Below are positions 1 through 5,549 of a stretch of 64,000 nucleotides of DNA, in pieces. The translations under genes and the position numbers were made by a program. The stretch covers positions 905,362 to 969,361 of the forward strand of contig NZ_KB913035.1 in NCBI RefSeq assembly GCF_000384255.1, in the 5' to 3' direction. Within the stretch, counting starts at the first letter, position 1. Every line of letters begins with the position of its first letter. Source of the stretch: Methylotenera mobilis 13. Lineage in GTDB: Bacteria > Pseudomonadota > Gammaproteobacteria > Burkholderiales > Methylophilaceae. Under the pieces are notes generated by a model, which did not search any database, had not been told where the DNA came from, and saw only the letters and a list, made by a program, of their open reading frames with translations.

Positions 1-1025
1 CTGTCAAGCAAGTCCAAATTGGCCGCACTGGTTCTTTTGACGATAGCGGGAGGTGAGGTGCTAATCCGTTGTTTTTTATGCAGCAGCTCTACTTGTACAT
101 AGATACGTGCACCATTATTTAACCTTAATGGAACGATTAACTTATCCGCACTCCCTGTCTGTCTTAATAGGCTTGTGAATGGAATATCAAACAATTGGTC
201 AAAATTAATTGGCGGATAAGCGCGCGCGTTGTTCGCATTAGAGGCGCCTGTATTTAAGCTGAGTTGGAATTGGCCGCTTCTATTGATTGCTACCAGTTGA
301 CCGCCTGCTGTAAAAATGGCGACACCTTCCCATAATGTGCCGATAAACTCTGGGCGAGCATGAAAATGTAGTACCACATCTCCTTGATGGCTTGCTAAAA
401 ACAGTCGATTCTCAATCATCTGCGCAGACATTTTTATCAGCGCTAAGGTATGTTGTTGAGATGTATTGGAATCGTTAGAGACATCCAATGTGGCAATCAG
501 TTGATTCTCAGCGCCAAAAATGGGGACGGCAGAACAGCTTAATGAGTGATGGTATGCCATAAAGTGCTCTGCACCCTGTACTGTGAGCGCTGATTGTTCA
601 ATCAGTACCGTACCAATCGCATTTGTGCCTCTATGGTCCTCATGCCAAGATGCGCCAGCAGATAAAGCAACGCGTTGGTCTTCATTCATAAAATGATGCC
701 CGCCAAGGCTATGCAGAATTACGCCTTCATCGTCCGTTAATATCACCACGTTACGCGTATGTGCGATTTGCTCGTTGAGCGTTTCCATCTCAGGTTGTGC
801 AAGTTTAAGCAGTTGCTGATTTTGCTCACGTTTTAGTGCAAGCTCTTGCGCGGTAACAACTTCCAAACTTGGAGGTGAGTTTGTGTCGATACCATTTGCC
901 AGACAACGCCTCCATGAGCGCTCAATCGCTTCAGCAATCGCCCCTTGTTCTACATTGCCATTGCTCAAAAACTCTTTTCTGGCTTGCAGTATGGTTGGGG
1001 TTTTATCTGTTGTGGCATTGCTCAT
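1..1025 (-). CDS. Sigma-54-dependent transcriptional activator, AcoR-like (3' end outside window)
   Basis: Reading leftwards from the ATG at 1025 the frame is open to the window edge, giving about 341 N-terminal residues. The start (MSNATTDKTPTIL) leads into an E-R-S-W-R-R-C segment and a GAF-like region with residues such as H-E-D-H-R-G-T-N-A-I-G-T, the pattern of the sensory half of AcoR/DhaR-type regulators that control alcohol, acetoin or aldehyde genes. The AAA+ sigma-54 domain (GAFTGA) and the Fis-type helix-turn-helix should lie beyond position 1, so the class is inferred from the N-terminus. It diverges from xoxF, and the shared intergenic region carries a dyad and a sigma-54 promoter, so it probably controls xoxF. 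The ligand is unknown. Confidence 0.8.
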   Translation of the reverse strand, partial: MSNATTDKTPTILQARKEFLSNGNVEQGAIAEAIERSWRRCLANGIDTNSPPSLEVVTAQELALKREQNQQLLKLAQPEMETLNEQIAHTRNVVILTDDEGVILHSLGGHHFMNEDQRVALSAGASWHEDHRGTNAIGTVLIEQSALTVQGAEHFMAYHHSLSCSAVPIFGAENQLIATLDVSNDSNTSQQHTLALIKMSAQMIENRLFLASHQGDVVLHFHARPEFIGTLWEGVAIFTAGGQLVAINRSGQFQLSLNTGASNANNARAYPPINFDQLFDIPFTSLLRQTGSADKLIVPLRLNNGARIYVQVELLHKKQRISTSPPAIVKRTSAANLDLLD

Positions 1026-1050
1026 ATTGTTGGCTACTTACCTTAAATGA

Positions 1051-1080
1051 TTGAACACCTGTCACGTGACAGATGTTCAA
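1051..1080. promoter_or_regulatory. 30-bp inverted repeat, candidate activator-binding site
   Basis: Arms TTGAACAcCTGTCAC and GTGACAGaTGTTCAA pair at 14 of 15 positions with no spacer. A related, imperfect copy (TTGACACAGTGTTCAA) follows directly at 1082-1097. The dyad lies about 130 bp upstream of the -24/-12 element before xoxF, the usual place for an enhancer bound by a sigma-54 activator, and 26 bp from the start of the divergent AcoR-like gene, so it could also mediate autoregulation. Binding by that protein is inferred. Confidence 0.7.
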
Positions 1081-1210
1081 TTTTGACACAGTGTTCAAAG
1101 TTAAATGCATTCAGCATGGAAGCAATATCTATTTCCATGAGATTTTTAGTTTATTGATTTTAAATAATTTTTTTATGAAAATTTATTTAAATAGTGGCTT
1201 TTTATTGTGT

Positions 1211-1226
1211 TGGCATGCCCATTGCA
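1211..1226 (+). promoter_or_regulatory. Sigma-54 (-24/-12) promoter of xoxF
   Basis: TTGGCATGCCCATTGCAA (1210-1227) has GG at 1212-1213 and GC at 1224-1225, ten bases apart, as sigma-54 requires, and differs little from consensus TGGCACG-N4-TTGCA. Transcription would start near 1237, leaving a leader of about 75 nt before the xoxF ATG. An AcoR-like activator gene next door and an upstream dyad support the call. Confidence 0.8.
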
Positions 1227-1311
1227 ATATTAGCACTGTTACCAATGTCGTTTCAATGCATGAAATTAGTAATACGTAACTTAAATAATTTTTATAATTT
1301 GGGGATGCAAA

Positions 1312-3198
1312 ATGAATCATCAATTTAAACGTAGACTTGGCTTGAGCATCGCTTTAAGCGCTGGTCTATTTGGCATGTTAAGCACACCAGCTTTTGCTGC
1401 AGATGAATTATCAACACTCATGAATGATGATAATCAGTGGGCACATCCACGTAAGGATTTTAGCAATACTGGTTATAGCCGTCTAAGCCAAATCAATAAA
1501 GGCAATGTGAAAAACATGAAACTTGCCTGGTCATTTGCAACAGGTGTTAATCGTGGTCATGAAGGTGCGCCATTGGTGATCAATGGTGTGATGTATATCC
1601 ATACCGCGTTTCCTAACAACATCTACGCACTAGATTTAAATAATAATCAAAAAATTCTTTGGTCTTATTTTCCTAAACAAGATCCATCAGTACAGGCTTT
1701 ACTCTGTTGCGATAACGTAAACCGTGGCTTGGGTTACGGAGATGGCAAGATTTTCTTGCAACAAAATGATGGTCTTTTAGTCGCGTTAGATGCTAAAACT
1801 GGTAAAAAAATATGGGATACGCAAGTTACCAATACTAAAGAAGGCGCATCAAATACCAATGCACCACATGTGATTAAAGACAAAGTGATTACAGGCTGTT
1901 CAGGTGGCGAGTATGGGGTGCGTTGTTATATCACGGCATATAACATTAAAGACGGTGCTTTGGTATGGCGTGCATACAGCACAGGCTCTGACCAAGATGT
2001 ATTGATTGGTGATGATTTTAATAAAGATAACCCGCACTACAGCGCCTTATCACTTTATCAAGACGTTAACGGCGGCAATAAAATTGGCGGTTCATTCCAA
2101 GCTTTACCTAAAGACCAATTGAAATTCCCAGAGAAAGATCTTGGTATTAAAACGTGGCTCAAACCACAAGCAAGAAAAGATGGCTGGCAGAATGGTGGCG
2201 GCCCTACTTGGGGTTGGTACTCATATGACACGAAATTGAACTTGATGTACTACGGTACAGGTAACCCAAGTACATGGAACCCAGATGTACGCCCTGGCGA
2301 TAACAAATGGTCGATGACGATTTTTGCACGCGATGTAGATACAGGTATGGCAAAATGGGGTTATCAAATGACCCCTCATGATGAGTGGGATTACGACGGT
2401 ATGAATGAAATCATCCTGTGGGATTCTAAAGGTAAAAAACTTGCTAGCCACTTCGATCGTAACGGTTTTGGTTACACGTTTGACCGTACCAATGGTTCAT
2501 TGCTAGTTGCTAATAAAATGCATCCGTTTGTTAACTGGGCATCAAGTGTTGACCTTAAAACTGGTACACCAATAAAAGATCCTAAATTTTCAACTCACCA
2601 AGATTACAACGCACTAGGAATTTGTCCTTCAGCGTTAGGTGTAAAAGATCAGCAACCTGCGGCATTCTCACCAAAAACTGGGATGTTCTACGTACCGCTT
2701 AACCATGTTTGTATGACTTACGAGCCAGTTGAGTCTAAATACGTTGCTGGGCAGCCTTGGGTAGGTTCAACCTTAACCATGTTCCCTGGACCAGATGGCG
2801 TAATGGGTGGATTTATGGCTTGGGATGGCTTAAAAGGTAAATCAGCTTGGTACAAAAAAGAGCAGTTCTCAGCTTGGGGTGGCGCACTCGTTACCTCTAC
2901 TAACTTAGTGTTCTACGGCACATTAGATCGTTGGTTTAAAGCGGTTGATGCTAACTCAGGTAAAGAGTTATGGAAGTTCCAAGTAGGTTCTGGTGTTGTT
3001 GGTAATGCCATCACTTACGGCCATAAAGGTAAGCAGTACGTAGGTGTATTGTCTGGCATTGGTGGCTGGGCTGGTGTGGCGATGAACCTAGGGTTAACTA
3101 ATGCTACTGATGGCTTGGGTGCTGCTGGTGGTTATAAAGATCTCGTTAAGTACAACGCTGCACCTGGTGGTGGTGCAATGAACGTATTTAGCCTATAA
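1312..3198 (+). CDS. xoxF: XoxF-type PQQ-dependent methanol dehydrogenase, lanthanide form
   Basis: Periplasmic quinoprotein that oxidises methanol to formaldehyde (or further) with PQQ and a lanthanide. A Sec signal peptide ends near A-F-A at residues 27-29. The vicinal disulfide pair Cys132-Cys133 that sits over PQQ is present. The active-site segment H-D-E-W-D-Y-D-G has the catalytic Asp360 and, two residues on, Asp362; this second Asp is the marker of lanthanide XoxF enzymes, where calcium MxaF has Ala. Tryptophan-docking repeats (for example A-W-D-G-L-K-G) occur to the C-terminus. Length (628) fits the family; GGGG before the ATG is a good ribosome site. A cytochrome c follows 23 bp on. 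No mxaI or mxaJ is present. Sigma-54 control is suggested by the promoter upstream. Confidence 0.95.
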   Translation: MNHQFKRRLGLSIALSAGLFGMLSTPAFAADELSTLMNDDNQWAHPRKDFSNTGYSRLSQINKGNVKNMKLAWSFATGVNRGHEGAPLVINGVMYIHTAFPNNIYALDLNNNQKILWSYFPKQDPSVQALLCCDNVNRGLGYGDGKIFLQQNDGLLVALDAKTGKKIWDTQVTNTKEGASNTNAPHVIKDKVITGCSGGEYGVRCYITAYNIKDGALVWRAYSTGSDQDVLIGDDFNKDNPHYSALSLYQDVNGGNKIGGSFQALPKDQLKFPEKDLGIKTWLKPQARKDGWQNGGGPTWGWYSYDTKLNLMYYGTGNPSTWNPDVRPGDNKWSMTIFARDVDTGMAKWGYQMTPHDEWDYDGMNEIILWDSKGKKLASHFDRNGFGYTFDRTNGSLLVANKMHPFVNWASSVDLKTGTPIKDPKFSTHQDYNALGICPSALGVKDQQPAAFSPKTGMFYVPLNHVCMTYEPVESKYVAGQPWVGSTLTMFPGPDGVMGGFMAWDGLKGKSAWYKKEQFSAWGGALVTSTNLVFYGTLDRWFKAVDANSGKELWKFQVGSGVVGNAITYGHKGKQYVGVLSGIGGWAGVAMNLGLTNATDGLGAAGGYKDLVKYNAAPGGGAMNVFSL

Positions 3199-3570: not shown

Positions 3571-3604
3571 AAAAGGGCTAACCATTAGGTTAGCCCTTTT
3601 TTTA
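3571..3604 (+). terminator. Rho-independent terminator of xoxF-cytochrome operon
   Basis: A 13-bp perfect stem (AAAAGGGCTAACC / GGTTAGCCCTTTT) with a four-base loop runs into a T tract, 22 bp after the cytochrome stop. Confidence 0.92.
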
Positions 3605-3713: not shown

Positions 3714-5549
3714 CTATTCAATATTGGTTACGGGTTGTTCTGCACCAATCACACGGTTTCTGCCGGATTGTTTTGCTAAATAAAGCGCTGCATCAGCACG
3801 CGGTAAAACACTATCTACTGATTCCCCATACAAACGCTCTGCAACCCCTGCACTAAAGGTAATCAGTACGCGCTCGTTGTTGTGCAAGAAAAAGTTTTTG
3901 GTTAAATCGCGTTGTAAGCCAGAAACAACCGTCACAGCATCTTTCTGGTTTGATCCCGGTAGTAAAATAACAAACTCTTCGCCACCGTAGCGAGCCAGTA
4001 CATCAGTGCTACGTAAGATACTTTTAACCACTTTAGATAAATGAGCGAGCGCCTTATCACCAGTGGAGTGGCCCATGGTGTCATTAATTTTCTTAAAGTG
4101 GTCAACATCCAACATTGCAAGCGAAAGTGGTGTGCCGTGCCTGTCAGAGCGTTCAAATTCACGAATAAGAGCCTCATCCATACCGCGTCTGTTTAATGCC
4201 CCAGTTAAGAAGTCTTCGTGCGCTGCCTCGCTAATATAATCAAGCTTAAGTGTGAGTTCGTTGATTTTCTTTTCAGCTTCTTCTGCCTTTTTCTGTGACT
4301 CTAATAGGGTGACATGATTGGCTTTTGCTTCATTGTTCATTTCGCCAATATCACCCACTAAACTTTCCAATATAGTGTTGAGCTCAGAAATGTCTTCTAC
4401 TGCATTGATTTGGGCATGGTATTGCTGAATCTTGTTTTGGTAGTTGCCTGTAGAGGTGGTAATGTCAGCTAGTCGGCTAACAAATGTGCTCACCATGCTT
4501 CTGAGCGTTTCTTTGGCTTCAATCAGACCTGGTTTAATCTGAGATTGCTTGAAAATAAGCTCTTTCAGGCTACTTTCAGCGTTGTAAACAGTATCAATTT
4601 TGAGTGGTTTGGAAACAATTTCTTTAACAATGACAATTTGAGCATGTAACCATTGATCTTCAATCGTTAAATCAGCCATGCTGGCAACAAGTAAGCGCAG
4701 TATTTCAATCAGCGCCTCCTGCATCCTACGTTGTGCATCTGTTTGCATTTCTGCTCGAAGCAGGGTTGACCGTAAAGCACCATTGAGTTGGTTAATTTGC
4801 TCAAGTGTGTGTGCGGTTTCAGCTTCTTTAATTAACTCCTCAACACGATTTGTTGCGCTTGGTGAATCTGTAAATTTTGGCAGTACAAGAATTCTAATGG
4901 TTCTGATCAATATATCGCGCCAAGCTGTTGCGACATCTGCATGATTGACATCGCTTTTATCAGTGAGGGGATCAATGGATGCAGATACATCATTATTTTT
5001 AGATGATTGGCCATTGTGGATTGGTTTTGCCGTGCTGTTAGCAGATATTTCAATATCAGCAGCTTTTCCTTCACCCCAAGACGTAATGAGTGTCTGAACT
5101 TTTTCTGCCAGTTGAGATGAATCATTTGCAAAATTCGAGATAACACGATTCAGGCTATCTTTTTTAGATGCTGCGGTTATTCCTGTGTGATTTAAGTCTA
5201 GTTGTTTGAGTAAGTAGCGTAGGAGTGTGCCCCACTGTATGTTACTTTCGTTTTCAGCATCGCTAGAGATAAGTGCACGAAGTTGTTTATCTAAATTAAC
5301 AGCATCATGTTTGTCGATTAGACTTGAAATTCTTTTTGCAACTGTTGCGTATTTAGCGTTTTCTTTACTTTTTTCTAGCAATACCTTGTTGAGCGTATTG
5401 TCTAAAATTGCTTTGCTATTGGCAGAAGCCACGCCAGCAATTTCGTCATAAACTAGTCTGTAGTTCTCGGGAGTAGGCGGTCTTTGGCTTTTTGACAGCT
5501 GAATTAAAGTCTGACGAGCGATTTCAAGAGATGTGAGTTTTTGTTCCAT
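3714..5549 (-). CDS. Diguanylate cyclase with long helical N-terminal region
   Basis: Makes cyclic di-GMP from two GTP. Residues about 435-605 form a GGDEF domain with active-site motif G-G-E-E-F at 522-526 and an R-S-T-D inhibitory site at 513-516, five residues before it, so product feedback is expected. The first 430 residues contain no membrane segment and look mostly helical, with a coiled-coil stretch before the cyclase (about 400-435); I do not recognise a named sensor domain, though this architecture recurs in betaproteobacterial cyclases. The start M-E-Q-K-L-T-S-L-E-I is the first ATG of the frame. It stands alone, convergent with the xoxF unit. Confidence 0.88.
   Translation of the reverse strand: MEQKLTSLEIARQTLIQLSKSQRPPTPENYRLVYDEIAGVASANSKAILDNTLNKVLLEKSKENAKYATVAKRISSLIDKHDAVNLDKQLRALISSDAENESNIQWGTLLRYLLKQLDLNHTGITAASKKDSLNRVISNFANDSSQLAEKVQTLITSWGEGKAADIEISANSTAKPIHNGQSSKNNDVSASIDPLTDKSDVNHADVATAWRDILIRTIRILVLPKFTDSPSATNRVEELIKEAETAHTLEQINQLNGALRSTLLRAEMQTDAQRRMQEALIEILRLLVASMADLTIEDQWLHAQIVIVKEIVSKPLKIDTVYNAESSLKELIFKQSQIKPGLIEAKETLRSMVSTFVSRLADITTSTGNYQNKIQQYHAQINAVEDISELNTILESLVGDIGEMNNEAKANHVTLLESQKKAEEAEKKINELTLKLDYISEAAHEDFLTGALNRRGMDEALIREFERSDRHGTPLSLAMLDVDHFKKINDTMGHSTGDKALAHLSKVVKSILRSTDVLARYGGEEFVILLPGSNQKDAVTVVSGLQRDLTKNFFLHNNERVLITFSAGVAERLYGESVDSVLPRADAALYLAKQSGRNRVIGAEQPVTNIE

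Follow-up and report, generated by a model that had tools for sequence, protein, structure and literature searches.

A putative sigma-54 promoter and a divergent GAF-type activator at one xoxF locus of Methylotenera mobilis 13

DhaR, the dihydroxyacetone kinase regulator of E. coli, works with sigma-70 and the PTS-type partners DhaK and DhaL. In some methanotrophs MmoR, the sigma-54 activator of soluble methane monooxygenase, contains a GAF domain (PMC5874634). Alternative PQQ alcohol dehydrogenases are controlled by MxcQE, MxbDM, MxaY/MxaB and PedS2/PedR2, and the regulation of XoxF expression still needs further study, according to a 2024 review (PMC11845868). In Fig. 1 of that review, whose species include M. 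mobilis, the legend names among the genes of xox clusters one for a GAF-modulated sigma-54-specific regulator and one of GGDEF type. XoxF copies of one genome follow different expression patterns, and xoxF expression in a synthetic community depends on the nitrogen source and on oxygen and methane (PMC5723320). In situ, mmol_1770 was up 4-6-fold and msip34_0016 was up 100-fold; the M. versatilis homologue m301_1208, which is without the cytochrome, was low in all conditions, and the expression section of the same paper names no regulator for the three genes (PMC3728764).

We analysed a stretch of 64,000 nucleotides from Methylotenera mobilis 13 (the window; contig NZ_KB913035.1, positions 905,362 to 969,361), in which an xoxF gene is faced by a divergent activator gene (Table 1). 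We consider it highly likely from the sequence that the product of the activator gene is a one-component enhancer-binding protein specific to the xoxF-cytochrome unit, acting through operator dyads, DNA bending, a sigma-54 element and a small ligand. The neighbourhood itself is already known, since the legend cited above lists the regulator and the GGDEF gene in xox clusters, and the regulator of the legend is very probably the same gene in Methylotenera mobilis JLW8, because a GGDEF gene is present in both (here at 3714-5549). The legend gives a gene label only; the promoter, the operators, the clade and the paralogue specificity are not in it (PMC11845868). The sigma-54 promoter type is known, and a search of open-licence papers found no printed description of one, or of its mechanism, for an xoxF target.

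Table 1. Features of the xoxF locus (positions are those of the window)
Feature	Position	Strand	Basis or placement
Activator 5' part, 341 codons (GAF/PAS-like/AAA+/HTH_8)	1..1025	-	ORF reading, Pfam, model
Operator dyad 1, TGAACA-CC-TGTCAC, proposed activator site	1052..1065	+	centre ~178 bp before predicted start
Operator dyad 2, TGAACA-TC-TGTCAC, proposed, abuts dyad 1	1066..1079	-	centre ~164 bp before predicted start
Third, weaker putative site, TGACACAGTGTTCA	1084..1097	+	alignment; about -145
TTGATTTTAA, candidate IHF-type bend site	1154..1163	+	between operators and promoter
Sigma-54 -24/-12 element, TGGCATGCCCATTGCA (TGGCATG-CCCA-TTGCA)	1211..1226	+	consensus match, family comparison
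xoxF, 628 aa, lanthanide-type DEWDYDG motif, XoxF4-2-like	1312..3198	+	family model, structure match, motif
Small c-type cytochrome, 108 aa	3222..3548	+	ORF, Pfam
Intrinsic-terminator-like stem-loop, 13 pairs and T run, closes xoxF-cytochrome unit	3571..3600	+	scan

The xoxF product scores 645 bits against TIGR03075, and its closest solved chain is 6oc5 (XoxF). The DEWDYDG motif carries the extra metal-binding Asp, as in the XoxF lanthanide methanol dehydrogenase. The gene product is ~74% identical to that of the xoxJ-linked copy, and a small cytochrome is encoded downstream; by neighbourhood and type, the gene would fit XoxF4-2 (mmol_1770 type) as described in PMC6028718 and PMC4109929. The cytochrome gene is probably co-transcribed with xoxF, and a homologue lies downstream in 15/31 xoxF loci examined (flank up to 1.5 kb). 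The terminator-like stem-loop carries little weight by itself, because four such sites were found against 2.2 expected. Downstream of the xoxF unit and convergent to it is a 611-aa ORF (3714-5549) whose C-terminus is of the GGDEF type (read by eye as GGEEF).

The complete activator gene (G000:C1:904446-906386) continues past the left edge of the window and encodes 646 residues. Its product exceeds the Pfam cut-offs for GAF, Sigma54_activat (PF00158, 223.6 bits against a cut-off of 20.2), AAA_lid_14 and HTH_8, and contains Walker A and B motifs and a GAFTGA loop. The Walker motifs are kept in 40/40 clade members; the loop reads GAFTGA in 35 of the 40 and GAYTGA in the remaining five. The N-terminal 341 residues were modelled with a mean pLDDT of 88, and a fold search with the sensor model returned DhaR(N) at the top (4lrx, 4lry and 4lrz; E 1e-16), with IclR-type ligand domains next. 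These matches identify the modelled sensor as a GAF and PAS-like module of the type that takes small ligands. The resulting order of GAF, PAS-like, AAA+ and HTH_8, with the PAS-like part coming from the model only, is an AcoR-type architecture. The first-pass annotation had called the divergent gene AcoR-type, which stands for the architecture and for the divergent orientation from position 1025 and fails for family membership: the best 25 of 29 NCBIfam matches all lie below their cut-offs, and no AcoR model is among them. Just to the left of the window (L009:1-3455) are genes for a molybdopterin-binding aldehyde/xanthine-type oxidoreductase and for XdhC-like and MobA-like proteins, which come before the activator gene.

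The -24/-12 element places GG at 1212-1213 and GC at 1224-1225, with ten bases between, and matches 12/12 scored positions of TGGCAYG-N4-TTGCW; between the two genes, the runner-up on the same strand has a score of 8. The distance from the element to the xoxF ATG, which is preceded by a Shine-Dalgarno-like GGGGA, is 85 bases, so that both the near-consensus spacing and the position about 85 bp before the ATG that had been read from the sequence earlier are borne out. The predicted transcription start would lie at ~1236-1237. Across the 2.80-Mb single-contig genome, TGGCAYGN4TTGC has seven matches against two for a reversed-pattern control; an ORF start lies 69-101 bp downstream at five of the seven, one site is inside a reading frame and one is without a nearby start. 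Among the five ORFs, one has a pilin-like N-terminus. The whole genome has a single-copy rpoN (one Sigma54_DBD match, E 1e-67). A full sigma-54 match at L017 (G000:C1:2390717-2390731) is followed, 87 bp downstream, by an ORF whose N-terminus resembles that of type IV pilins; type IV pilin genes are a familiar kind of sigma-54 target.

Five PQQ-dehydrogenase genes are present in the genome, and the element lies within 500 bp of this xoxF only. It was not found within 500 bp of the other four, which include an mxaF-like gene (DFAG) and an xoxF at C1:608497 with an xoxJ-like binding protein gene after it. Global control of methanol oxidation by this system is rejected, because four of the five genes are without the element in that range.

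Linkage between promoter and activator was assessed across the family, with 187 genomes searched with the activator and with xoxF and loci taken from the matches listed. Sixty-two activator loci entered the script, again from the matches listed, and 46 (44 genomes) had both genes recognised and divergent. Seven loci were left out with the activator not matched in the stretch (L153, L154, L160, L163 and L166-L168), and nine with xoxF not recognised (L116, L145, L149, L156-L159, L161 and L162); the element is also carried by L116, at a contig end, and by L154, in which the activator overlap is too short. TGGCAYR-N4-TTGC lies upstream of xoxF in 46/46 linked loci (44 Methylophilaceae genomes), and was not found in the 600 bp upstream of any of 40 unlinked xoxF genes, hand-picked among the matches listed rather than drawn at random and unlinked in the sense of having no full-length activator match alongside among those matches. 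The best scores in the unlinked regions were 7-10 for 38 and 11/12 for two, both near -494. The latter (L219 in G176 and L220 in G174) share an identical GGGCATGCCTTTTGCA ~494 bp upstream of the unlinked xoxF. A match to rpoN was obtained in 176/187 family genomes, and the 11 without one include none of the 44 linked genomes. A wider genome-contig search with the activator gave at least 80 loci, and none of the matches listed had a Methylophilaceae title.

The contrast between 46/46 linked and 0/40 sampled unlinked loci makes a chance origin of the element very unlikely, and strongly favours the reading that the divergent GAF-type activator acts on a sigma-54 promoter here. For the linked loci, it also answers in the affirmative the alignment check proposed with the first-pass annotation, namely conservation of the element in other Methylophilaceae. 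That annotation had further suggested that a GAF-sensing enhancer-binding protein switches methanol dehydrogenase in this lineage; the suggestion survives for one xoxF copy, on the same counts, and gives way as a lineage-wide rule, with one of five genes carrying the element. In one genome, G056, a locus (L188, G056:C28:184000-184887) has an activator frame with one in-frame TGA, and the facing xoxF keeps promoter and operator; a second activator-xoxF pair is present at C18.

Upstream of the promoter, the two proposed operator dyads form a near-perfect 32-bp palindrome at 1050-1081 (ATTGAACACCTGTCAC/GTGACAGATGTTCAAT), which, like TTGATTTTAA, is absent from the first-pass annotation. Alignment of 47 linked intergenic regions revealed TGAACA-NN-TGT-type dyads lying 108-175 bp upstream of the -24 element, often two of them at a spacing of 14 or ~21 bp. 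In the same alignment, the left half of TGACACAGTGTTCA, in which ACA stands ~19 bp from dyad 2, is found again in other genera. TTGATTTTAA, which we take to be a candidate IHF-type site from its consensus, occurs in the same or a near form in 30/47 regions and is absent in 17/47. A fuller operator pattern, fitted to the linked set, is present in 45/47 linked and 0/40 unlinked regions; counting the ACA-NN-TGT core is a less fitted test. At 90-190 bp before the element, this core is present in 16/16 same-genus loci against 14% of shuffles and in 20/31 other linked loci against 9% of shuffles, and when loosened by one letter it is found in 27/31 out-of-genus loci against 13% of shuffles. The exact core is missing from 11/31 out-of-genus loci, and two of these loci (L125 and L126) are without even the loosened form. 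An information-content profile was kept out of the evidence, its peak being partly circular because the profile was anchored on the operator pattern itself.

Within the genome, the 14-mer TGAACANNTGTNNC occurs ten times against three for the control, with the two copies at this locus intergenic and the other eight inside reading frames. A wide regulon using the same operator in this genome is rejected on this exact-pattern search, which may overlook weaker sites, because the other eight matches fall inside reading frames. Counted from the start codon of the activator gene, the operators start 27 bp upstream, and this proximity suggests that the activator may also limit its own expression. Comparison of the loci brings out the promoter element, the operator array, the activator architecture and their joint inheritance as features of the sequence.

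From this arrangement we infer activator binding, activation, the start site and bending. The proposed sites fall within 80-200 bp upstream of the predicted start; activator dimers would bind the TGAACA-NN-TGT dyads at ~-178 and ~-164, and there is a putative further site, less strong, around -145. Bending of the DNA would carry the activator to an RNA polymerase-sigma-54 complex waiting at the -24/-12 element, where the AAA+ ATPase would open the promoter and transcription would proceed from near 1236. A small organic ligand in the N-terminal GAF/PAS-like part would set when the activator is active. An alcohol or aldehyde is our first guess for this ligand, because the nearest family relatives sit beside aldehyde dehydrogenases. 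The chain from promoter through operators to activator is supported about as well as sequence alone allows. The in situ induction of mmol_1770 and msip34_0016 and the activator-free xoxF of G177 (below) speak for the proposed mechanism; the low expression of m301_1208, the two unlinked regions scoring 11/12, the linked loci without the exact core or without TTGATTTTAA, and the G055 activator copies with no xoxF found upstream speak against it.

Conservation could reflect only the common ancestry of two neighbouring genes, with the consensus match coincidental. Most loci do come from one family, and near-identical genomes repeat the same sequence; the 46 loci nevertheless span several genera, with activators down to ~54% identity and intergenic DNA that is largely unalignable, and TGGCA and TTGC persist in all of them, whereas the looser TGGCAYRN4TTGC is found in 13/9200 Markov-1 sequences generated from a model of the intergenic regions at linked loci. 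We regard coincidence of this kind as scarcely credible. The same retention in 46/46 loci despite diverged surroundings argues against xoxF being driven from a sigma-70 promoter by a lanthanide-switch regulator of the classical kind, with the -24/-12 element minor or a relic. Such an arrangement could draw on a weak sigma-70-like match at 1260-1289 (9/12) and on the two-component control of other xox genes (PMC11845868), but sigma-70-like matches in the region number four against 7.2 expected from shuffles, fewer than chance, and we judge it very unlikely.

It is likewise improbable that the element is real and mainly serves another enhancer-binding protein, for example NtrC under nitrogen limitation, while the neighbour mainly controls something else. 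Six further strong sigma-54 activator domain matches in the genome provide candidates, and nitrogen source alters xoxF expression in the synthetic community (PMC5723320). Promoter and operators, however, go with the neighbouring activator and are missing at 40/40 sampled unlinked xoxF genes, and the remaining operator 14-mers of the genome lie inside reading frames. Nitrogen status as the signal finds no support in the activator protein itself.

A tree of 76 activators, built by a quick method and with long outgroup branches, places the xoxF-facing activators and two extra copies from G055 in one group (support 99). One activator from G177 (L247) adjoins this group (support 99), followed by nine activators that group together with support 100; of these, seven face an aldehyde dehydrogenase, as does L247, with Pfam Aldedh in all eight. 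The fork joining the xoxF-type and aldehyde-dehydrogenase groups has a support of 89 only. At HTH residue 634, 39/40 members of the xoxF group have N, 9/9 of the aldehyde-dehydrogenase group have A, and L247 has T. L247, the G177 activator most similar to that of the M. mobilis 13 locus, lies beside its aldehyde dehydrogenase with a promoter and a like operator, TGTAACACCTGTTGCA; the other aldehyde-dehydrogenase loci have, by eye, GTCTCA/TGAGAC upstream repeats instead. The xoxF at C9 of G177 (L185) has no activator within 1.5 kb upstream, yet keeps the promoter and GTAACACCTGTTCA, and is probably served in trans.

The two G055 activators (L262 and L266, G055:C1:943030-944901 and 1086062-1087933) are identical xoxF-type copies, and no xoxF was found over 1.6 kb upstream of the first or over 2.6 kb upstream of the second. 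The divergent ORF at L266 resembles, by eye, a metallophosphatase with a PEP-CTERM-like tail. PQQ dehydrogenases lie near distant activator relatives at L030 and L083. Neighbour ORFs at L157 (546 aa), L028 (885 aa) and L072 (330 aa), which were chosen mechanically and may not be genes, gave no Pfam match.

One tentative and rather doubtful account sees in the activator a re-targeted aldehyde sensor: after duplication of an aldehyde-dehydrogenase regulator within Methylophilaceae, its HTH and operator would have altered and it would have taken over a spare lanthanide methanol dehydrogenase. This XoxF would then be gated by a C1 or other small organic metabolite and not by lanthanides. Candidate metabolites would be formaldehyde, methanol or a relative. 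If this re-targeting is true, G177 would be a living intermediate, with a like operator before both an aldehyde dehydrogenase and an orphan xoxF.

A conserved, private sigma-54 switch on one xoxF copy would provide a physical basis for the expression difference between copies and opens that difference to direct genetic test; xoxF mutants exist in the genus (PMC6028718). The switch may explain the strong induction of one xoxF copy under some field conditions, and bears on why Methylophilaceae retain several XoxF copies and what activates each.

Among known systems, DhaR is the activator's best NCBIfam match (residues 22-645, 311.7 bits, cut-off 551), and the modelled sensor appears to share with it a GAF followed by a PAS-like domain; unlike DhaR, the activator falls below the family cut-off and lies beside a methanol dehydrogenase. 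AcoR-type regulators of acetoin and aldehyde dehydrogenases have the same order of GAF, PAS-like, AAA+ and HTH_8 and a divergent target, a likeness of architecture only, and the aldehyde-dehydrogenase sister clade differs in operators and in HTH residue 634. MmoR, likened here by description, is also a sigma-54 activator of a C1-oxidation operon, and differs in target and organism group. The regulators of the lanthanide switch likewise control alternative PQQ alcohol dehydrogenases and are two-component systems (PMC11845868), whereas the xoxF activator, in which the Pfam scan found no receiver domain, is of the one-component type.
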